This document shows, piece by piece, positions 1-9,978 of a stretch of DNA of 33,842 nucleotides; the stretch's first letter is position 1; each line of letters begins with the position of its first letter. The DNA comes from Candidatus Woesearchaeota archaeon. GTDB taxonomy: Archaea; Nanobdellota; Nanobdellia; Woesearchaeales; J072. The notes below the pieces were generated by a model, which ran no database searches, was not told the DNA's origin, and saw only the letters and a list, made by a program, of their open reading frames with translations. The stretch lies in contig RFII01000050.1 of assembly GCA_003695265.1 (NCBI GenBank), forward strand, positions 1 through 33,842, written 5' to 3'. Both the position numbers and the translations under genes were made by a program.

Positions 1-1278
1 ATCAAAAATCTTATAAAAACTAACAAGGAACTGCAGGAAACCTTATCAAAAATTCTTGCCAACATAAGTGGGCTGCCAAAAAAGAAGCAGGAAAAGCCCT
101 TTTTTAAGGCAGATTACCAGAAAGATCAGGCTTCTATTATTAAAAAAAGGGAACTGCAAATAACTGATTTGAACGAGGAATTAAAGCGCAGAAACAAACT
201 TATCCAGCACCTGGCAGCAAAACTTAGGCTTGCTCAGGATTACAGCGCCCAAGCCAATAAACAGCTCAATCTGCTGAATAAGAAATTGGACTCAAAAAAC
301 AGACAAATACTTCTTATGAAAAAAGAACTGGAAAAAAGGGATAAATACATTCAAAAATTGGCAGCCGAAAAAAGCGATGAAACCAAGACATTAAAAAATA
401 CACTCTTAAAAGCACAGGAAGAAATCAACTTAAAAAACACACTTATTTTTAATCTTGAAAAAGAGGTTGAAACACACAAAAATTCTTTGGAAGAATTAAA
501 GCGAAAACTGCGAAGGCTGGCAAATGAATCTTATGAAAAAGAAAAGAAAATAACTCTTCTTAAGTCTGAAAATTCTTCCTTAGCAAATGCTGTTAGGGAA
601 TTAAAGCAGAATTCTGATTTGTTGTCAGCGCAGGTTGAGTCTCTCAAGTCGGATTTGGGTATTGCCAGGCAGAAAATCGTCGCTGTAGAAACAAGAGCCC
701 GTAAAAAAGAGGCGGCCTCTAAAAAGTCTTTAGAAATGTTGAAAATGGAGTATGAGAAGTCCTTGAAAGAACTTATTAAGAGCCAGTCTCAAAAAGAAGT
801 CGCTCTAAAGTCAAAAATTAACGAGTTAAACGAGAAAATACTTAACAAGGCACTGCTTCTTAAGAAAAAACAGGAGCAAGAAAAAAAATTATTTTACACT
901 TTTAACAAAGCCTTAAGAAACCTTTTTTATTTGAACGAGTCTGAATTAAAGCCAATGCTAAAAAAAGCGCTTTCTCAACAAACACAACCAACACAAGAGC
1001 CAGACCAAAAGGAAATCACAATACACCACTCCAGCGATGATAATGATTCTTTTTTTGTTGACGAACCACAAAAATTTCATACGCCAATCCACACACCTGT
1101 AATGCATAAAACTGTCAAACAAGTTATAAATGAGGATGATCCTTTAAAACTGCTCGTTCCTATGGTAAAAACAGCCTTAGACCATGGTGATTCTGTTGAG
1201 CAGATAAAGCATTCTTTACTCAATTCCGGCTATTCTGAGAAACACATAGAAGAAGCATTAACAAAAGTCAAAAAATAA
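1..1278 (+). CDS. Coiled-coil protein, 5'-truncated by window edge; short helical C-terminal module
   Basis: Frame 1 is open from base 1 (IKNLIKTNKELQETLSKILANISG...), so the listed TTG start at 169 is an artefact. Long K/E/L heptad-like sequence, then a Q/P/D linker and DDPLKLLVPMVKTALDHGDSVEQIKHSLLNSGYSEKHIEEALTKVKK. Confidence 0.75.
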   Translation: MKNLIKTNKELQETLSKILANISGLPKKKQEKPFFKADYQKDQASIIKKRELQITDLNEELKRRNKLIQHLAAKLRLAQDYSAQANKQLNLLNKKLDSKNRQILLMKKELEKRDKYIQKLAAEKSDETKTLKNTLLKAQEEINLKNTLIFNLEKEVETHKNSLEELKRKLRRLANESYEKEKKITLLKSENSSLANAVRELKQNSDLLSAQVESLKSDLGIARQKIVAVETRARKKEAASKKSLEMLKMEYEKSLKELIKSQSQKEVALKSKINELNEKILNKALLLKKKQEQEKKLFYTFNKALRNLFYLNESELKPMLKKALSQQTQPTQEPDQKEITIHHSSDDNDSFFVDEPQKFHTPIHTPVMHKTVKQVINEDDPLKLLVPMVKTALDHGDSVEQIKHSLLNSGYSEKHIEEALTKVKK

Positions 1279-1287
1279 AAAAATAAT

Positions 1288-2256
1288 TTATCCCGCGTGT
1301 TTTACCAGCACTGGTGTTGTCACGTGGTCCTTATAATCAAACTCTGCCTTTATTGTCACAAGCTTTTTGAACTCTGAGTTTATTGGCATTGACAGCTGCT
1401 GCACACACCTAATTATTCTGTGCCCATTAAACAGCTTTACTTCTCCAGAGTCCCTTCCTGCTTCGTTCGGGCCGTCCAATCCATTGCAGTCAAGGGTTCC
1501 GCTTAATCCAGTGTCAACCTCAACATAAATTGTGTCCTCATCTTGAATGGTGTCACTACATTCAGTGCCTAATCTTGAGATTAAGCCAACATTTCTGTGC
1601 TGAAGCTCAAACGTGAAAGCTATTTTGTCATTTCCTTGTGCTGATTCTGTTAATGAGGCGACCTGTATTGGAGATCCTGAATTATAAACCGTTTTTTGCT
1701 CGTTCACAAAACACACTGGCTCAACAATCTTTGTCCCAGATGCTGTCTCTTGCGTGTCTAACAAATCATCTTTTATACATAGAAACGCTTCTGACATCAA
1801 ACCGTACTGGTAACAGATGTCTGCCCTGAAAAAGAATTGTGTTTGGCCGCTCACATTACCAGCATAATTCCATTCTCCCATGTCAACAAATGAAATCCCT
1901 CCTGGAATTACATTAAGATCAGGATCAAACTCTTGGCCTGGTATGTCCTCATTAACAATAACAGTTTGTTCTCCTGTCCTTCCAAAGTCTTCTGGGTCAA
2001 CACCGACAAGAGTTACTTTAGCTTCTCCTGCGTTAATATCCCATTCACCAACATTCTCCAAGACTACCTGGACCCCGAAGGGAAATTGTCCTTGATCAAA
2101 CACTATGCCTGGTGGTGAGCCCTCAAGAAAGCCGATGTCCAATCCCTGAGTTCCTCCAATAAATGGGTTGGTAGTATCACCTACTTGTTGCCCACCTTGG
2201 GTGCATCCAACGATTATTAATCCAAGCGCAATTAAAAGAATCAAGATCTTGTTCAT
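1288..2256 (-). CDS. Secreted lipoprotein, paralogue 1 of 4
   Basis: Signal peptide with lipobox (MNKILILLIALGLIIVGC). SD-like gaggagg upstream on the minus strand. Shares FLxxxPPxxI, NVGxxDI and CYxY motifs with the next three genes. Confidence 0.8.
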   Translation of the reverse strand: MNKILILLIALGLIIVGCTQGGQQVGDTTNPFIGGTQGLDIGFLEGSPPGIVFDQGQFPFGVQVVLENVGEWDINAGEAKVTLVGVDPEDFGRTGEQTVIVNEDIPGQEFDPDLNVIPGGISFVDMGEWNYAGNVSGQTQFFFRADICYQYGLMSEAFLCIKDDLLDTQETASGTKIVEPVCFVNEQKTVYNSGSPIQVASLTESAQGNDKIAFTFELQHRNVGLISRLGTECSDTIQDEDTIYVEVDTGLSGTLDCNGLDGPNEAGRDSGEVKLFNGHRIIRCVQQLSMPINSEFKKLVTIKAEFDYKDHVTTPVLVKHAG

Positions 2257-2370
2257 TTTCCAGCCTCCTCTTTTTTGGTCTTCATTATTTAAACAACTTT
2301 TAATTATCAGAAATGATTATGAAGTTAGCAATATATAAATTTTTTGGTTTTTTCTCCTCTAAAAAAGGTT

Positions 2371-3306
2371 TTAAACAAAAATGCTCCTAATAATTCTCAT
2401 GTTTGTGTAAATAGAATCCCTGTAGCCGTAACCAAGCCTTAACGTAAGCAAAGTCTCGTAATTTTCTCCAAAATCCAAGCATGTTTCGCAATAACAATAA
2501 ATGTACCCTTCGCCGCGTTCATCCAACCTTATTTCATCAGGCTTGCAAGTCAGAGTGTTTTCTGCGAGGCGTGCCTCTTCAAGAGACAACTTGTTGTATT
2601 CATCTCTTAAAAGGTCTGTGTGGCAGTTAGTAATCCCTCCAGGACCACTACCTTTGTAAAACACTTCTCCTCCACCAAGATTCTTAAAAAATATTTTGAA
2701 TTGCACTCTCTGGCCTATGATGTTCTCTTCAATCCTGGTAATTGCTACAGGCGCTCCTTGGCCGCCTGCCAAGGAAAGGTCATGCACCTCACAAACCTTG
2801 TCCTGTATTGTGTTCGTGTAATCAGTGTCAATGCACACCTTTGGAGTGGCATAAGTCTCATAATAATAGCATGCTGTTACCTTAAACGTTTGGTCAAAAT
2901 AAGGAACCTCTTGCGGAATTTCAACACGGTCCTCCCTGAACGAAACAGTTCCATAAATATCGCCGTAAGGGTTGAACTCGCTTATTCCTGGAGCCTCAAA
3001 AGTCCTGGTGTTGTCATAAGAAAGGTGGGGAAAGTACCTGTCGTCAAATCCTGTAAGGTAAAAATACCCTTGTCCATTTGTTATGTCATATGTTCCTTTG
3101 TTTGAGAACTCAACCATTATGTCCACTGGATCTCCATTATATATCTCTGCCGGCGGCGTGTTTGGAAGAAACCTCATGACAATTCCCAAGTTTCCTCTCG
3201 CGTAGTCAACAGCATAATCACGCCGAGACCCGAACCCACCCCAATAAGTACAACCAACTAAGAAAATGAAAATAAAAACCAATGAAAATTTCACTATTTT
3301 ATACAT
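2371..3306 (-). CDS. Secreted lipoprotein, paralogue 2 of 4
   Basis: Lipobox FIFLVGC; RFLPNTPPAEIYNG; CYYYETYATPKVCIDTD; GGQGAPVAITRIEE; FFKNLGGGEV. Confidence 0.8.
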   Translation of the reverse strand: MYKIVKFSLVFIFIFLVGCTYWGGFGSRRDYAVDYARGNLGIVMRFLPNTPPAEIYNGDPVDIMVEFSNKGTYDITNGQGYFYLTGFDDRYFPHLSYDNTRTFEAPGISEFNPYGDIYGTVSFREDRVEIPQEVPYFDQTFKVTACYYYETYATPKVCIDTDYTNTIQDKVCEVHDLSLAGGQGAPVAITRIEENIIGQRVQFKIFFKNLGGGEVFYKGSGPGGITNCHTDLLRDEYNKLSLEEARLAENTLTCKPDEIRLDERGEGYIYCYCETCLDFGENYETLLTLRLGYGYRDSIYTNMRIIRSIFV

Positions 3307-3344
3307 GGAACCACCAACCTGTTTTGAGCTATATAAAATTTTCG

Positions 3345-4313
3345 CTAACTTTCAAGGCTCCTAACAATCTCAACCTTTTTTTGGATTGAGTTGCTGTAAC
3401 CGTACTCAAGCACGATTCTAAGCACTGATTCATGCGCGTCTTTCTCTTTTGGCACGCTGTAAGTGCAGACAAACACTGCTTCATCATTGTACAGCCTTAT
3501 CCTTGGAACCATCAAAACATCATCAACAGGTTTGCAAGTGTCAGTTATTTCAAAGTCAGACACAAAAACCTTTGGGTAAACCCATCCTTTATTGTTCCAC
3601 AAATCTTCGCTTGTGTATTTTGAGGCAAGGCAGGGCATGTCGTACTTGCCAATGTCAAACACTTCCCCATCACCTTCATTTTCTATTTTTATTTCAAAAG
3701 TAACATCAACTATCGAAGGATCTTGAGTCTCTGTTACATATTCATTTACATAAGTGACAGCAATCGGAGCTCCTTGTCCTTTGCTGATTTTTTTATCTGA
3801 AATGTAACATGTCTGGTCTGTTTTTACCCCTCCAGCTGGTATTGTGTCTATGCAAACAGGTATATTGGCAACAGTGTAATAAGGATAGCAGGCAACCACT
3901 TTTATTGGCACATCATAAAAGTTTGTCTCGCTATCAGGAAACCTTATGTTATAAGTTTCATATTCTTTGTATTCATAGCCTCCATTCAAATTTATTTCAC
4001 TTCTGCCTTCTAAAGAAAACCTGTTTTCTTCGCTTCCCTCAACGTACAAGCCCTGAACCAGCTTAGTGTCAAACCCTTGAATGCTTATTAAGCCGTCAAC
4101 AACATCACTAGTTCCTCTGTTTCTTATTTCCAGGCCTACGTGCAGGCCTGAGTGCTGCCACACCTTGTCAGGTGGAAGGTTGTCAGCAAAGCTTAAAACA
4201 ACACCCTCTTTTCCGCTAGCGTCAAAAGTGTAACTGTTTGAGGGCTGAAAGCTAACCAGGCAGCCGCTTAGCGCGGCCAGCAAAAAAATGTGAAGCACAT
4301 GGATTAATCTCAT
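3345..4313 (-). CDS. Secreted lipoprotein, paralogue 3 of 4
   Basis: Lipobox LLAALSGC; NLPPDKVW; CYPYYTVANIPVCIDT; KGQGAPIAVTYVNE; IENEGDGEVF. Confidence 0.8.
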   Translation of the reverse strand: MRLIHVLHIFLLAALSGCLVSFQPSNSYTFDASGKEGVVLSFADNLPPDKVWQHSGLHVGLEIRNRGTSDVVDGLISIQGFDTKLVQGLYVEGSEENRFSLEGRSEINLNGGYEYKEYETYNIRFPDSETNFYDVPIKVVACYPYYTVANIPVCIDTIPAGGVKTDQTCYISDKKISKGQGAPIAVTYVNEYVTETQDPSIVDVTFEIKIENEGDGEVFDIGKYDMPCLASKYTSEDLWNNKGWVYPKVFVSDFEITDTCKPVDDVLMVPRIRLYNDEAVFVCTYSVPKEKDAHESVLRIVLEYGYSNSIQKKVEIVRSLES

Positions 4314-4314
4314 A

Positions 4315-5268
4315 TTACCTTTCCTTCACTTTTATTACATTATACTTTGTAACAACATAACCATACTTTAAGTTTATGTTTAAGGGCGTTACGTACTCTG
4401 AATTGGGCGTTTCTAGTTCTCCTGTGCAAACAACATAATTCAACTCGTTTTTGTCAGTCATAATAATTTCACCCTCATTGCTGTCTGCCCCGCATTTTAA
4501 GTCAACGTCATGCAATTGGGCAGTCACCTTAACAACTTCCAAATCATCATACGTGAACTTGTCGCTGCCGCAAATATCCCAGAGTACAGCGGTGTTTTTT
4601 GTGATTTGCCCGTCACCGACGTTTTTCACAAATATTTTGTACTGGACATTCATCTTATTGTCGCTCACTATCGCAGAAGGCTCCACCCTGCTCACAACAA
4701 CAGGCGCTCCCTGCTCCTTAAGGTCAATGTTTTCAGCCTTGCAAACCTTGTTTTCTTTTATGTTGTAAGGGTCTGGGTCAACGCAAACATCAGGATCAGC
4801 GTTTGTTTCGTAAGTGTAGCACAGTTCTGTTTGAATAAGGCATTCATCATCTCGCTTGTCAGCATGCAGCGTTAAATCACCAATCCAAAACCCTCCGCCT
4901 GGCTGAAACCTCGAAACGCCTTTTATTTCAATGTTATTTATAGTAGCTGCGTGGTGCGTTCCCGCAAGGTCAGAAAAGCTCACTGCCTTGCAACTCGAAA
5001 CAGCTATTGTCGCATCATTAACATCAGTAACGCCGAGGTTCCTGACTTCCATAGCAACCTTAAAATTAGTATCCTCCCAGACCTCTGGAGGTGGGGCATT
5101 TTTCAATAGTTTCATCACTAATCCTTGACCGCCCACGTTTAAGTCTAGGAAATCAATTTCTTTCCCTGTCTTTTGTCTGATTCCACAACTGCTGAGAATC
5201 ATAACTGCAAAAATCAAGATTACAGCAAACATTATTTTTTTCACTTTAAGTTGCGGCCTCATTGTCAA
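4315..5268 (-). CDS. Secreted lipoprotein, paralogue 4 of 4
   Basis: Lipobox VMILSSC; KNAPPPEVWED; CYTYETNADPDVCVDPD; EQGAPVVVSRVE; VKNVGDGQI. Start overlaps the end of the upstream gene by 23 nt. Confidence 0.8.
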   Translation of the reverse strand: MTMRPQLKVKKIMFAVILIFAVMILSSCGIRQKTGKEIDFLDLNVGGQGLVMKLLKNAPPPEVWEDTNFKVAMEVRNLGVTDVNDATIAVSSCKAVSFSDLAGTHHAATINNIEIKGVSRFQPGGGFWIGDLTLHADKRDDECLIQTELCYTYETNADPDVCVDPDPYNIKENKVCKAENIDLKEQGAPVVVSRVEPSAIVSDNKMNVQYKIFVKNVGDGQITKNTAVLWDICGSDKFTYDDLEVVKVTAQLHDVDLKCGADSNEGEIIMTDKNELNYVVCTGELETPNSEYVTPLNINLKYGYVVTKYNVIKVKER

Positions 5269-7039
5269 TTATTTCAAAGCTCTGCTGCTTTTCAATTATG
5301 TAATTATAGCTCATCTCTGAGCTTATTACCAAGTCAACAGGGTTGTTTGTTTCGTCAAACAGCCCGCGCGTGTCAAGCTCCAATGGTATGTACGTGTAAG
5401 CGAGCTTTCCTTTCTTCTCAAACTCCTTTATTACTCTGTTAAACTCTGCTTTTGCATCTGTTGTCATACAACACCTTTTTCCTGTGCAGTCAATCGTCGC
5501 GTCCCCACTCTTTTTTGAAATGAAGTCAGGAAGCTCTAAGCACAGTTCAGTGACCTCATCGATTTTTCCCTCGCCGTTATTCACCAAAGCAACTCTTAAG
5601 GGAAGCTCTATTGTTTTATCATCAGGCACAGGAACAGGCGATTCCCTTTTTGTTGTCAGGTCAATCATTACAATGTTTGGGTCCATGGCAGCAGGCACAA
5701 CAACATTATTGTATGGGAAAGGCTCTTGAGAATAAAGGTCCGGCGTTCCTTCCCTTATAAAATACGTTTTAACGCTTGAAGTTGACCTCTGACCAAATTT
5801 AATCCATCCTGTCAAATAATAATTCCCTTTTGTTAATTCCAAAGGCGCTGACTTGCAAAGAGATATTGTTTTTGAGGTTCCTGCCCTGTACTCTTTAGAA
5901 ACGTGAAATTCGTTCGGCACAGGATCACTCGTACCAGTAAAATTACTGGTTGCGTTGCTGAACCTGCAATGTATTTCTCCATCAATATCAAGCTCGTCAT
6001 TCCCCCTTATTACCTCCACTTCCATGCTTAAGCCAGTCTCTTTAACATAATTTGAAGTGTAAGAACCATAAACCTCATCCAAATTAAGCTTGACTTCAGT
6101 TGGGATTTTCTCTGTTTCTTTGCCCCCTATAACAACAACTTCTTCCTGCTCCCCTGTCGTGATTTGATCATACTCTGTGCAGTCCTGCTGCGGCCCTATG
6201 CATTTCAGGTAAGCTGCCTGTAATCTTCCTAAATTAAGCAGACCTTCACCAATAGCTGACGCTTTTTCTTTTACACCCACAATTCTGTTATTAACAATTT
6301 CGTACTGTTCCGGAGCAACTATCATCCTTATGTCATACCCCCACGCTCCAAAATCGTTTTGGTCTAGGAAGAAAGCAAGCCAAAACAACAACAGCAAAAA
6401 CCACATTCTAGCATTAAAGCTTGTCGGCTCATAAGTTGAGCCTGCAAGCAACCCTATGTAGCTCCACCAAGGCCACAGCGGCTTGAAGAAAATCCATTTG
6501 ACGAAAGGAACAGTATGCAAGTACGGTCCCAACAGCTTCGGCATAAAAACTTCGAGTGAAATTCCGAGAAGAGCCCATATAAGACCGTCATGCCTGAACC
6601 TGAAAACAACACCCCACAAGACGCAAGCATATATTATGTCAACAACAATTGTTGCTGTAGTAACGCTGTAAGCCGGCATGCCGACAGACCTTGGAAGCAT
6701 GGAATCAATAACATAATTGTTCAGCAAGCCAAGGATTACGAACCAGTCGAACATGCTTCCGGGCAGAAACCCGCCAAGAAACCCTGCTGCGCCGCCCAAA
6801 GCCCATTTTGCAGTTCCTTTAACAACTGCACCTCCCATTCCGGCGGCCCTTTCAATTCCTCTTCCTGCTTTCTTCACCGCTTGCTTTGCCTGGGCAGCAG
6901 CCGCTTTTGCCCTTTCCTTCGCTGCTTCTTCCTGTTCTTCTGCTGTTTCCTCCTGCTCCTCTGCCAATTCTTCTTCTTTTTCTGCTGCTTTTATCTCCTC
7001 TTTAAGCTTCTTCTCTGTTAACTCATCAACATCAGCCAT
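5246..7039 (-). CDS. Polytopic membrane protein: charged Ala/Glu/Lys N-terminal helix, several TM segments, extracytoplasmic C-terminal domain
   Basis: N-terminus MADVDELTEKKLKEEIKAAEKEEELAEEQEE...; hydrophobic stretches (MFDWFVILGLLNNYVI, TIVVDIIYACVLWGVVF, GLIWALLGISLEVF, MWFLLLLFWLAFFL); C-terminal ...LRVALVNNGEGKIDEVTELCLELP... resembling the lipoprotein motifs. Confidence 0.8.
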   Translation of the reverse strand: MADVDELTEKKLKEEIKAAEKEEELAEEQEETAEEQEEAAKERAKAAAAQAKQAVKKAGRGIERAAGMGGAVVKGTAKWALGGAAGFLGGFLPGSMFDWFVILGLLNNYVIDSMLPRSVGMPAYSVTTATIVVDIIYACVLWGVVFRFRHDGLIWALLGISLEVFMPKLLGPYLHTVPFVKWIFFKPLWPWWSYIGLLAGSTYEPTSFNARMWFLLLLFWLAFFLDQNDFGAWGYDIRMIVAPEQYEIVNNRIVGVKEKASAIGEGLLNLGRLQAAYLKCIGPQQDCTEYDQITTGEQEEVVVIGGKETEKIPTEVKLNLDEVYGSYTSNYVKETGLSMEVEVIRGNDELDIDGEIHCRFSNATSNFTGTSDPVPNEFHVSKEYRAGTSKTISLCKSAPLELTKGNYYLTGWIKFGQRSTSSVKTYFIREGTPDLYSQEPFPYNNVVVPAAMDPNIVMIDLTTKRESPVPVPDDKTIELPLRVALVNNGEGKIDEVTELCLELPDFISKKSGDATIDCTGKRCCMTTDAKAEFNRVIKEFEKKGKLAYTYIPLELDTRGLFDETNNPVDLVISSEMSYNYIIEKQQSFEIIDNEAAT

Positions 7040-7098
7040 TTTTGTTTAGAACAACAGAAATTTCTTCTATTCACCTCTTTTTCTGTTGAAAATCTTGA

Positions 7099-8793
7099 TT
7101 AGGTTTCAACTAGCTCTACGCGCAGCTCAACAATGTCAAGCGACTTGCTTAGCGGCACTATTGTTATTCCGTTGCTTCCGGGCTCAACATAATTCCCTAT
7201 GCTTCGGTAAAACTCCGGCTGCCTGGTGTTGAATGAGAATGTGTGGCCATTAACAAAAACTTCCCCCTGCTTCATTTCAAGATCGTCAATGAACCTCAAC
7301 GTAAGAATAACATCGTAAGCGTCGCTTAACACGAAATCATAAAACTCAACGGACTGCGGCCTTTGCCTTGGAGGGCAATCAGGATTATCACCGTCGCTGT
7401 TCTCATAACCTGCCGGGCAGTCGTCACATTCCGACGTGCTTATTCCAGCCTCGCAAATGCTTCTCACACCTGTTGTTGGGAAATCATCACACCACCAGTA
7501 CGAGCCGTTCTCTTCTTCAAAACAGCAGTCTTTATCATAATAAATTGAGCAATCATCAGGGCACTCACCATCAGTGTCATCACCACATTCTCCTTCGCAA
7601 GCCTGAGGCGGATCGCCGTTCTTTTCTTCATATCCTGAAGTGCACCTGCCGCAGTTTTCTGATGACACATAAGACACACACCTGTCATCCTGATTGTCTG
7701 TTTCCAAGTCGCACCAGTAATTGTTGTTTATGAAGCAGCAGTCCTTATCCTCATCCTCATCACAACCGCTGGGACAGTACCCATCAATCACACCACAAAC
7801 ACCCTCTTCAAAAAACTCATCAATAGCACCTTCAAAAAACACGTCCGGCAATTCAAAAAAATAGCTTGGATAAACGCTTTCTTTCAAAAAACTCGTTACC
7901 ATTATCTGATCAATTATTATATTTCCTTTGTTTGTGCTGAACTTTACTTCGTTGTTTCCCTCAAACAACGTTTCTGGGCTTATTTCTATTGGGTTGTTCA
8001 TGCTTTTGCATGCGGGAACGCCCCTAAAAACGCGCTCATTGTTTATAATAATTGATAATGTGCCAACTTTGCTTTGATCGCAGTCTGCGTAAAACACCAT
8101 TTCTGCAGCTTCCAAATTCTCTTTTTCGCTTTCACCAAGGACAAACCTGCTTGAAGCAACTCTTCCAGAAATGTCTGAAACATCAGCTGTTATTTTCACG
8201 TTTTCAAGAAGCATCTCATTTGATTTCCAAAACGCGAATCCTGTCGGAGACACAAGAAATTCCAGCACGTTATTTTGTTGAAGAGCATCTTTAGCCAAAG
8301 GTATTGGGTTTGGAGAGTCAGAAATGTATGAATTAAATATTTCTTTTCCATTTAAAAGAATTATTAACCTTCCATTATGAACGCTTGAAGCAAATGATAA
8401 CAGCACGTTTTCTGTGTTTTCAAAATCATTTATTGGAAATTCCAGAGACTTGAACTGCTTGCCAAAAACGCTGTTTTTTACGTAAATATTGCTGACTTCC
8501 TTTATTATTTTTGAGCTTGTTACTGTCTGCAATGACACGCTCGGCAGCGGGTGTGGTATTTCTCCTGTCTGGATGTTTTCTAATCTTCCAGGGCTTTCAA
8601 GCAGTAAAACCTCATTAAAATCAGACGGAATCCTTCCTCCATTGTCTTCACCAGGAACATTTGGAGTTCTTCCTTCAAGAAGCTCTTCCCTTTCTTTTGG
8701 TGGAAGAAAAAGAATGTACAACACAACAAGTATTCCAATAATAATTATTAATGATGCAGCCCCTGAAGCCCTTTCCTGTGCCTTTCTGCGCAT
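7099..8793 (-). CDS. Membrane-anchored ectodomain protein (N-terminal TM) with two Cys-rich modules
   Basis: MRRKAQERASGAASLIIIIGILVVLYILFLPPKE (positive residues then TM), beta-rich ectodomain, tandem Cys-rich repeats. SD-like gaggtg upstream on the minus strand. Confidence 0.8.
   Translation of the reverse strand: MRRKAQERASGAASLIIIIGILVVLYILFLPPKEREELLEGRTPNVPGEDNGGRIPSDFNEVLLLESPGRLENIQTGEIPHPLPSVSLQTVTSSKIIKEVSNIYVKNSVFGKQFKSLEFPINDFENTENVLLSFASSVHNGRLIILLNGKEIFNSYISDSPNPIPLAKDALQQNNVLEFLVSPTGFAFWKSNEMLLENVKITADVSDISGRVASSRFVLGESEKENLEAAEMVFYADCDQSKVGTLSIIINNERVFRGVPACKSMNNPIEISPETLFEGNNEVKFSTNKGNIIIDQIMVTSFLKESVYPSYFFELPDVFFEGAIDEFFEEGVCGVIDGYCPSGCDEDEDKDCCFINNNYWCDLETDNQDDRCVSYVSSENCGRCTSGYEEKNGDPPQACEGECGDDTDGECPDDCSIYYDKDCCFEEENGSYWWCDDFPTTGVRSICEAGISTSECDDCPAGYENSDGDNPDCPPRQRPQSVEFYDFVLSDAYDVILTLRFIDDLEMKQGEVFVNGHTFSFNTRQPEFYRSIGNYVEPGSNGITIVPLSKSLDIVELRVELVET
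7375..7797 (-). repeat. Two tandem Cys-rich protein modules of about 70 codons inside the 564-aa protein
   Basis: Unit 1 CGVIDGYCPSGCDEDEDKDCCFINNNYWCD...CGRCTSGYEEKNGDPPQAC; unit 2 CGDDTDGECPDDCSIYYDKDCCFEEENGSYWWCD...CDDCPAGYENSDGDNPDC. First Cys codons lie at about 7797 and 7587, 70 codons apart. Confidence 0.85.
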
Positions 8794-8910
8794 ATAAATT
8801 ACACCTCTATTTTTAGGCGTTTGACATAGCTTTGATTTTCAAAAATTATATATATAGAGCACTATTTAAATGTTTTGCTAATAATAGAGAATTAAAATGA
8901 AAAATCAAAA

Positions 8911-9978
8911 ATGAAAATCATTCATAAAAACTTTAAGACAGGAGAATTAAAATTTCAAGTTCAGAACCCTGATGATTTGTGGCATGTAAGCCAAATAATC
9001 GATCCTGGAGACCTTGTCAGCGGTCAGACTTTTAGAAAAATCAAGATTGGTAACGAAGACCAAAGAAAAGCAGCGACTGTAAAAAAAAAAGTTTTTCTAA
9101 CCATAATGGTTGAGCGCGTTGAATTTCACAAGTACAGCGACACTCTGCGCGTTTTAGGCACGATTGTTGAAGGCCCGGAAGACCTGCAAAAAGGATCACA
9201 CCACACGATAAGCATTGAACAAAACTCAATAATAAAGCTGAAAAAGGAGAAATGGCTTTCTTTCCAAATAGAAAAAGTAGCAGAAGCATCCAAGCAGAAT
9301 CTGCCAAAAATAATCCTTTGCGTCATGGACCGCGAACAAGCAATCTTTGCTCTTTCAAAACAGTTTGATTACCAAATAATATCTTCTATTGAAGGTGATG
9401 TTGAGCGCAAGGAAAAAAGGGCTTCTTTCAAAGGAGGATTTTACACTGAAATAGTAAAAATTTTAAATGATTATTCTAAAAGGTACAAGCCAAAAAACAT
9501 TATTCTTGCGAGCCCGGCTTTTTTCAAAGATGACCTTTACAAAAGCATTAAGGATAAGGATTTGAAAGACCTCATTGTTTTAGCCACTTGCTCTTCTGTA
9601 AGCAAAAACGGCCTGAACGAGCTTCTTAAAAGGCCTGAAGTCCGTCAAGTTCTCCATCAAGACCGTGTCGCAAAAGAAATAAAATTTGTTGAGGAACTGT
9701 TGTCTGAAATCTCAAAGGACGGCGCAGCCTCGTACGGGTTTAACGAAACAAGGGATGCGGCAATTGCAGGAGCAGTAAAAACGCTTCTAGTAACAGACTC
9801 TTTTATTAAGAAAAAAAGAGAATCCGACGATTATTCTTCTCTCGATTCTGTTATGAAAGCAGTTGACGCTTCAAAAGGCGAAATTCACATAATAAGCTCT
9901 GACAACGACGCTGGAAAAAAACTTGATGGTCTCGGCGGAATAGGTGCTGTTTTAAGGTATAAAACAAATTTTTCATAA
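8911..9978 (+). CDS. pelA: Pelota homologue (Dom34, eRF1-like mRNA surveillance/ribosome rescue)
   Basis: MKIIHKNFKTGELKFQVQNPDDLWHVSQIIDPGDLVSGQTFRKIK and the C-terminal GEIHIISSDNDAGKKLDGLGGIGAVLRY are typical of archaeal pelota. Confidence 0.93.
   Translation: MKIIHKNFKTGELKFQVQNPDDLWHVSQIIDPGDLVSGQTFRKIKIGNEDQRKAATVKKKVFLTIMVERVEFHKYSDTLRVLGTIVEGPEDLQKGSHHTISIEQNSIIKLKKEKWLSFQIEKVAEASKQNLPKIILCVMDREQAIFALSKQFDYQIISSIEGDVERKEKRASFKGGFYTEIVKILNDYSKRYKPKNIILASPAFFKDDLYKSIKDKDLKDLIVLATCSSVSKNGLNELLKRPEVRQVLHQDRVAKEIKFVEELLSEISKDGAASYGFNETRDAAIAGAVKTLLVTDSFIKKKRESDDYSSLDSVMKAVDASKGEIHIISSDNDAGKKLDGLGGIGAVLRYKTNFS

Follow-up and report, generated by a model that had tools for sequence, protein, structure and literature searches.

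A six-gene cluster in a woesearchaeal contig

We analyzed contig RFII01000050.1 from the 1.06 Mb draft genome of a Candidatus Woesearchaeota archaeon (assembly GCA_003695265.1), whose 33,842 nucleotides are hereafter called the window. Positions 1288 through 8793 hold six consecutive minus-strand open reading frames (ORFs), as read from the ORF list and translations, which encode a jelly-roll protein with a transmembrane anchor (E), a polytopic membrane protein (P) and four lipoproteins (L). An earlier note on this DNA had singled out these closely spaced genes as a candidate surface complex, and all of its ORFs were confirmed. Gaps between the genes range from 1 to 114 base pairs (bp), and the sole overlap, between P and L1, is at most 23 bp. 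The size of this overlap hinges on a TTG start codon for L1, and the real overlap may be smaller. The features of the locus are as follows, with the evidence for each given in parentheses.

7099..8793, minus strand: E, surface protein of 564 amino acids (aa) with an N-terminal anchor, three jelly-roll (galactose-binding-like) domains and a Cys-rich insert (ORF, orthologs, AlphaFold, Foldseek)
8707..8787, minus strand: N-terminus of E, with a prepilin-like [KR][GA]Q motif (RKAQ) and a hydrophobic helix, then LPPxER (motif in orthologs; processing putative)
7360..7785, minus strand: Cys-rich two-repeat insert of E, between jelly rolls 2 and 3 (alignment of orthologs)
5246..7039, minus strand: P, polytopic membrane protein of 597 aa with a beta-sandwich C-terminal domain and no hydrolase tail (ORF, AlphaFold, orthologs in ~98 loci)
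6362..6754, minus strand: membrane-helix region of P, aa 96-226 (model helices and hydropathy)
5270..6022, minus strand: beta-domain of P, aa 340-590, predicted to be extracellular, with a conserved YxY strand at its end (alignment, model)
4315..5268, minus strand: L1 lipoprotein (ORF, lipobox SSC; L1-like in the tree with weak support)
3345..4313, minus strand: extra divergent L2-like lipoprotein (ORF, lipobox SGC; long branch near the L2 group)
2371..3306, minus strand: L2 lipoprotein (ORF, lipobox VGC; L2 clade support 99/93)
1288..2256, minus strand: L3 lipoprotein (ORF, lipobox VGC; L3 clade support 100/99)
8794..8910, no strand: intergenic DNA separating the divergent E and pelota genes, including a TATA-like, AT-rich stretch (sequence; putative promoter)
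8911..9978, plus strand: pelota (eRF1-like), a conserved divergent neighbor outside the complex (Pfam eRF1_1/2/3)

The four lipoproteins are paralogs of 311 to 322 aa each, as the earlier note had described them, and every one begins with the signal peptide and lipobox Cys that characterize bacterial-type lipoproteins. Full-length L genes in this genome are confined to the cluster. None of the six proteins yields a credible match in Pfam or NCBIfam, and comparison of the family profiles with the sequences in the PDB produced nothing meaningful. No ATPase gene lies within the cluster, as evident from the ORFs and from Pfam, in agreement with the earlier reading. The cluster is flanked by ordinary genes of archaea, namely pelota, identified by Pfam, and a TrmB-like regulator, pheS, pheT, secY and a ribosomal-protein operon, recognized by eye from their translations.

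Conservation of the gene order

Approximately 100 loci were retrieved and annotated with iterated profiles, giving 105 E loci and ~98 P proteins. Labels made of L and three digits (L045, L062, etc.) denote loci of relatives, and L, L1, L2 and L3 denote lipoproteins. P is too divergent for a search with a single sequence, which found four weak relatives among 98 genomes and none in the genome collection; in the neighborhoods of these four matches, E adjoins P and an L gene lies downstream of P. A profile of E detected this protein in 264 of the 288 genomes of the order (Woesearchaeales-type), with matches extending to many other families and to related orders in the same class. A pattern scan of all GTDB species returned matches in Woesearchaeota/Nanoarchaeota only.

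The most common arrangement among the 105 E loci is E-P-L-L-L (63 loci), followed by E-P-L (15), E alone (12), E-P-L-L (8), E-P (5) and E-P-L-L-L-L (2). Partial operons, several of them broken by contig ends, make up most of the loci besides the 63 exact ones, and several of the E-alone loci likewise lie at contig ends. The usual set is therefore five genes with three L, and the six-gene unit of the earlier note holds for the window but not as a general rule; the four-L form is found in the window and in L127. Four loci from outside the order but within the same class read E-P-L-L and encode a shorter P (389-456 aa). Because genomes throughout an archaeal order share this arrangement of genes, with proteins only ~15-45% identical, the cluster is not a product of chance. 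Scattering of the genes among related genomes, which would have spoken against a common unit, is refuted by an ordered operon that persists through nearly the whole order and in related orders.

The position of the operon is conserved as well. Pelota is the divergent neighbor of E in 75 of the 101 loci with enough upstream sequence, which argues for a fixed locus that is apparently inherited vertically. Among 20 genomes without a detected E, 17 keep L genes, several of these at contig starts, and many of the absences are thus best ascribed to assembly gaps. One genus (f84), whose L genes reside on separate contigs, may truly lack E. A tree of the L proteins resolves positional orthologs L1, L2 and L3, and the extra L2-like copy (3345-4313) is specific to the window among close comparisons. 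The strict lipobox pattern is matched by 232 of 248 L homologs, and most of the misses carry a variant residue preceding the Cys.

Additional genes were observed in or beside some operons. In two related genomes, E and P are separated by an ORF with a PIN domain, VapC-like by reading (L150:11197-11694 and L178:11192-11674, both minus strand). Genome G182 carries an 853-aa gene between L1 and L2 (L135:6433-8994, minus strand), whose product by eye has a C-terminal alternating, beta-barrel-like pattern and an aromatic last residue, which is odd for an archaeon. Large genes rich in coiled coils are lodged inside otherwise conserved operons at L052:3389-7807 (plus strand) and L135:4890-6392 (minus strand). 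In the window, a coiled-coil protein (169-1278, plus strand) is convergent with the operon end, and a similar gene follows the operon in L060.

Predicted architecture of the E, P and L proteins

The AlphaFold model of E, built from 95 sequences, has a predicted local distance difference test (pLDDT) score of 90 and comprises helices at residues 10-29 and 32-39, followed by jelly rolls at ~60-210, 212-322 and 487-563. Most of the 22 Cys residues fall in the two-repeat module between the second and third jelly rolls. The earlier description of a membrane-anchored, Cys-rich ectodomain protein is apt for the window's E, but the Cys-rich module is optional, being present in ~12 of 105 E proteins. 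The Foldseek matches of E, with E-values of 1e-4 to 1e-8, are to jelly rolls of beta-galactosidases, to BcsB and to PNGase F; they hold at the level of domains, with low TM-scores. A prepilin-like [KR][GAS]x motif precedes the hydrophobic stretch in ~90 of 104 E orthologs, and a PPxER break then follows. The window genome encodes a prepilin peptidase (PF01478) and PF00437 ATPases, the latter on other contigs, and prepilin processing of E is possible on the basis of these motifs.

The model of P is of moderate confidence (pLDDT 74). Together with hydropathy, it indicates a charged N-terminal helix (5-67), four to five membrane helices within residues 96-226, consistent with the polytopic character proposed earlier, and a beta-rich domain at ~340-590. 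If the number of transmembrane helices is odd and the charged helix lies inside, the beta-domain would be outside the cell. Topology and lipoboxes locate the C-terminal half of P, together with E and L, on the outside, where the note had envisaged that the lipoproteins and the Cys-rich protein assemble. Foldseek returns weak integrin Ig-like and FN3-type (scaffold protein) matches for P, again domain-level and with low TM-scores. A comparison of the P and L profiles gives a marginal match of the P beta-domain to the second half of L (E 3e-4, probability 40%), which suggests that the two may share an immunoglobulin (Ig)-like fold. One P protein (L166:5227-7464, plus strand) begins with a zinc ribbon, presumably on the cytoplasmic side.

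Several other identities were considered and set aside. Matches of the P profile to calcium ATPases, Piezo and glutamate receptors in the PDB were judged compositional (coiled coil, transmembrane), and weak Pfam matches of L to ATR13, RL11D or NVEALA were dismissed as chance. A match of P to STT3-like proteins is confined to the soluble beta-domain, and the transmembrane helices of P are too few for such a protein. Neither an S-layer nor an ABC-transporter identity is backed by anything in Pfam or NCBIfam.

Interchangeable murein-hydrolase tails

Alignment of the P proteins reveals a conserved core, which ends at the YxY strand, and an exchangeable C-terminal tail that extends from none to ~660 aa past this strand. 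At least 18 of 98 P tails are peptidoglycan hydrolases above the Pfam cut-off, and these belong to six unrelated families. SLT domains are found above the cut-off on P of L062, L063, L064, L068, L149, L153, L164, L166 and L168, and below it on L074 and L076. M23 domains occur on P of L045, L052 and L060, and glucosaminidase domains on L089, L140 and L172, with a fourth in the tallies. The remaining families are represented by Amidase_2 (L008), NlpC/P60 (L077) and M15 (L144, with L075 below the cut-off). SLT domains are also present on L1 of two relatives (L007 and L139). The NlpC/P60 domain of L077 aligns ahead of the terminal strand, showing that the attachment point varies. Other recognized extracellular tails of P are fn3-like, and Pfam finds no murein hydrolase domain in P and L of the window.

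These domains, on P as well as on the two L1 relatives, retain their catalytic residues nearly throughout, including the SLT Glu, the M23 HxxxD/HxH motifs in two of three cases, the NlpC Cys/His and the M15 His/Asp/His. Degraded-looking tails are the M23 domain of L060 and the SLT-like domain of L061. When the hydrolase label is placed on the E tree, its patchy distribution entails 17 changes, at least seven of which are forced by well-supported branches, and this indicates repeated gains and losses of hydrolase domains. Endolysins of Enterococcus phages share ~37% identity with the amidase tail of L008, consistent with a bacterial or phage source.

Hydrolase tails are not exclusive to this operon, since SLT domains are found somewhere in 162 of the 288 genomes of the order (~300 matches by a rough count), mostly outside the operon. 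The argument therefore rests on enrichment. SLT domains are ~100-fold enriched in P relative to background, and the chance of at least nine among 98 P proteins is ~4e-16, or 9e-11 with a four-fold correction for length, where these figures employ approximate gene numbers and treat genomes as independent despite their relatedness. The frequency of SLT domains in the order exceeds published counts for archaeal peptidoglycan hydrolases.

Three features had no place in the earlier note: the interchangeable hydrolase tails, which the window lacks, the fixed locus beside pelota, and the five-gene norm.

Comparison with known systems

The core components do not match the parts of the known machines compared here. 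No VirB4/VirD4-type ATPase is present in the window operon, and the genes beside the operon are unrelated in the relatives read. Pfam matches to VirB6/TrbL or VirB8/VirB10 are absent among 98 P, 120 L and 45 E proteins, P has no T2SSF match indicative of a PilC/FlaJ platform, and the cluster has no gene for a PilB/FlaI ATPase. Likewise, Pfam and NCBIfam reveal no transporter permease or ATPase and no TonB channel in the six proteins. The view that the genes resemble no recognizable system thus survives comparison with Pfam, NCBIfam and the PDB.

The closest precedent is the murein-like lytic transglycosylase family fam00969 (Module 98) of Pacearchaeota/Woesearchaeota, for which a part in attaching to the walls of bacteria was suggested (Castelle et al., 2021; PMC8204110). 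The parts of that paper and of a second study (Vigneron et al.; PMC9723730) considered here report murein-like transglycosylases in Woesearchaeota/Pacearchaeota and suggest attachment to or predation on bacteria. As described by Castelle et al., fam00969 occurs in the same lineages and comprises large extracellular proteins with an SLT-type domain. Some of the P proteins analyzed here may belong to it. However, the parts considered describe one enzyme family, with no operon, membrane base, lipoproteins, E or swapping among six families, and most P proteins carry no transglycosylase. Modular archaeal hydrolases such as Woldo (PMC12352652) are similar in that M23 and glucosaminidase domains act on bacteria, the domains are patchy and shuffled, and they are prominent in Nanoarchaeota. 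The definition of those proteins required both a catalytic and a wall-binding domain, and the members tested are soluble and secreted, whereas here the enzyme forms the tail of a multi-pass membrane protein encoded within a conserved operon.

VirB6/VirB1 of Gram-positive type IV secretion also combine a polytopic protein, a large C-terminal domain and a surface murein hydrolase, but the genes examined here offer no sequence match, ATPase, VirB8/VirB10 or DNA-transfer genes. BcsB of bacterial cellulose synthase resembles E in having membrane-anchored tandem jelly rolls at the outer face (Foldseek, E ~1e-5). In contrast to BcsB, E is anchored at its N-terminus, its operon contains no BcsA or glycosyltransferase, and no sequence similarity was found. 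The open-licence literature searched, supplementary tables aside, contains no description of the operon, of the P, E or L families, or of the domain swapping. Because no core component falls in a known family and no tested system has this composition, we judge the assembly to be new. The attached enzymes are of known kinds, and murein transglycosylases have already been reported in these archaea.

A candidate device for contact with bacteria

The bonds cleaved by the six hydrolase families differ (glycan strand, amide, stem peptide); bacterial murein is the only polymer common to them. Archaea lack murein, and archaeal pseudomurein differs from it in composition and linkage; moreover, archaeal peptidoglycan hydrolases can kill bacteria, as demonstrated with a haloarchaeal M23 enzyme (Strock et al., 2025; PMC12352652). 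For these reasons we interpret the complex as a device for contact, which in some lineages would also open bacterial walls, and the hydrolase tails, judged from their sequences, point to contact with other, bacterial cells. That the operon encodes a core surface complex of Woesearchaeota directed toward bacterial envelopes, and optionally armed with a murein hydrolase, is the explanation we tentatively favor, with somewhat less than even confidence.

In such a device, P would form the membrane base with an extracellular Ig/FN3-like head, surrounded outside the cell by E and by three (in the window, four) lipid-anchored Ig-like L proteins. E and L would recognize glycans or polymers in the envelopes of other cells. 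Many lineages have an exchangeable murein hydrolase at the C-terminus of P, or sometimes on L1, such that contact with a bacterium would lead to local opening of its peptidoglycan, whether to attach, to feed or to kill. Where no hydrolase is fused, as in the window, the complex would serve for binding only or rely on a hydrolase encoded elsewhere. The sequences show a conserved operon, topology signals, beta-domains and a repeated capture of hydrolases that keep most of their catalytic residues; the joining of the products into one complex, suggested by co-inheritance of the genes, is inferred, as are the bacterial target and the purpose.

Several observations weigh against this explanation. 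About 80% of P proteins, the window's included, have no recognized hydrolase, a genome-wide domain count gives no SLT anywhere in the window genome, and SLT domains reside elsewhere in many of the genomes of the order. The proposed interactions, expression, host and target are read here from genes alone, and the structural likenesses are qualified by the domain-level Foldseek matches and the moderate confidence of the P model noted above. Since most P proteins lack a recognized tail and the window genome lacks SLT, murein cutting is not the core function, which is most likely binding or attachment.

A rival explanation is a general envelope scaffold of Woesearchaeota, S-layer-like or membrane-organizing, in which an abundant surface anchor would bear the tails as spacers or as antibacterial weapons acquired opportunistically. 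A near-universal, vertically inherited locus whose P proteins mostly lack a hydrolase fits a housekeeping structure, and Ig/FN3-like heads and lipid anchors are structural folds. However, six murein-cutting families have repeatedly become attached at one terminus of P, and in two cases to L1, which favors contact with bacteria. We regard the scaffold explanation as rather unlikely. Nutrient capture, by which E and L would bind polysaccharide or murein fragments, tethered hydrolases would free muropeptides and P would pass them inward, appears improbable. It draws on the resemblance of E to carbohydrate-binding jelly rolls and BcsB, on the usable sugars and peptides that hydrolases yield, and on the small genomes of the order (~0.6-2 Mb), which imply scavenging; yet the operon has no transporter, ATPase or binding-protein-type gene, and P is unlike any transporter in Pfam or NCBIfam. 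Least probable is the outer portion of a machine for secretion or conjugation or of a pilus, with P as an extended VirB6, its tail as VirB1 and E as a pilin-like subunit. The parallel with VirB6/VirB1 (four to six transmembrane helices plus a large C-terminal domain; PMC12857230), the prepilin-like N-terminus of most E orthologs and the secretion-type ATPases and prepilin peptidase of the window genome speak for it. Against it are the lack of any Pfam match to a type IV secretion part in the cluster, the lack of an operon-linked ATPase in the loci read, and a Pro-Pro break after the E helix that is unusual for a filament pilin.

The contact device can also be stated in a broader and more speculative form, as a near-universal and hitherto undescribed machine of Woesearchaeota and sister Nanoarchaeota that attaches to and breaches bacterial cells, in which lipoproteins and a glycan-binding protein encircle a membrane base bearing interchangeable murein-cutting tips; this version we consider possible but rather doubtful. 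If it is true, bacteria, besides archaea, would be regular hosts or prey of DPANN archaea. To our knowledge, the Woesearchaeota, a very large group of archaea, have no cultured isolates and no known hosts. The operon provides a concrete set of genes and proteins for asking whether these organisms live on or attack bacteria, and E-P-L beside pelota is a marker that can be traced in metagenomes, proteomes and imaging.

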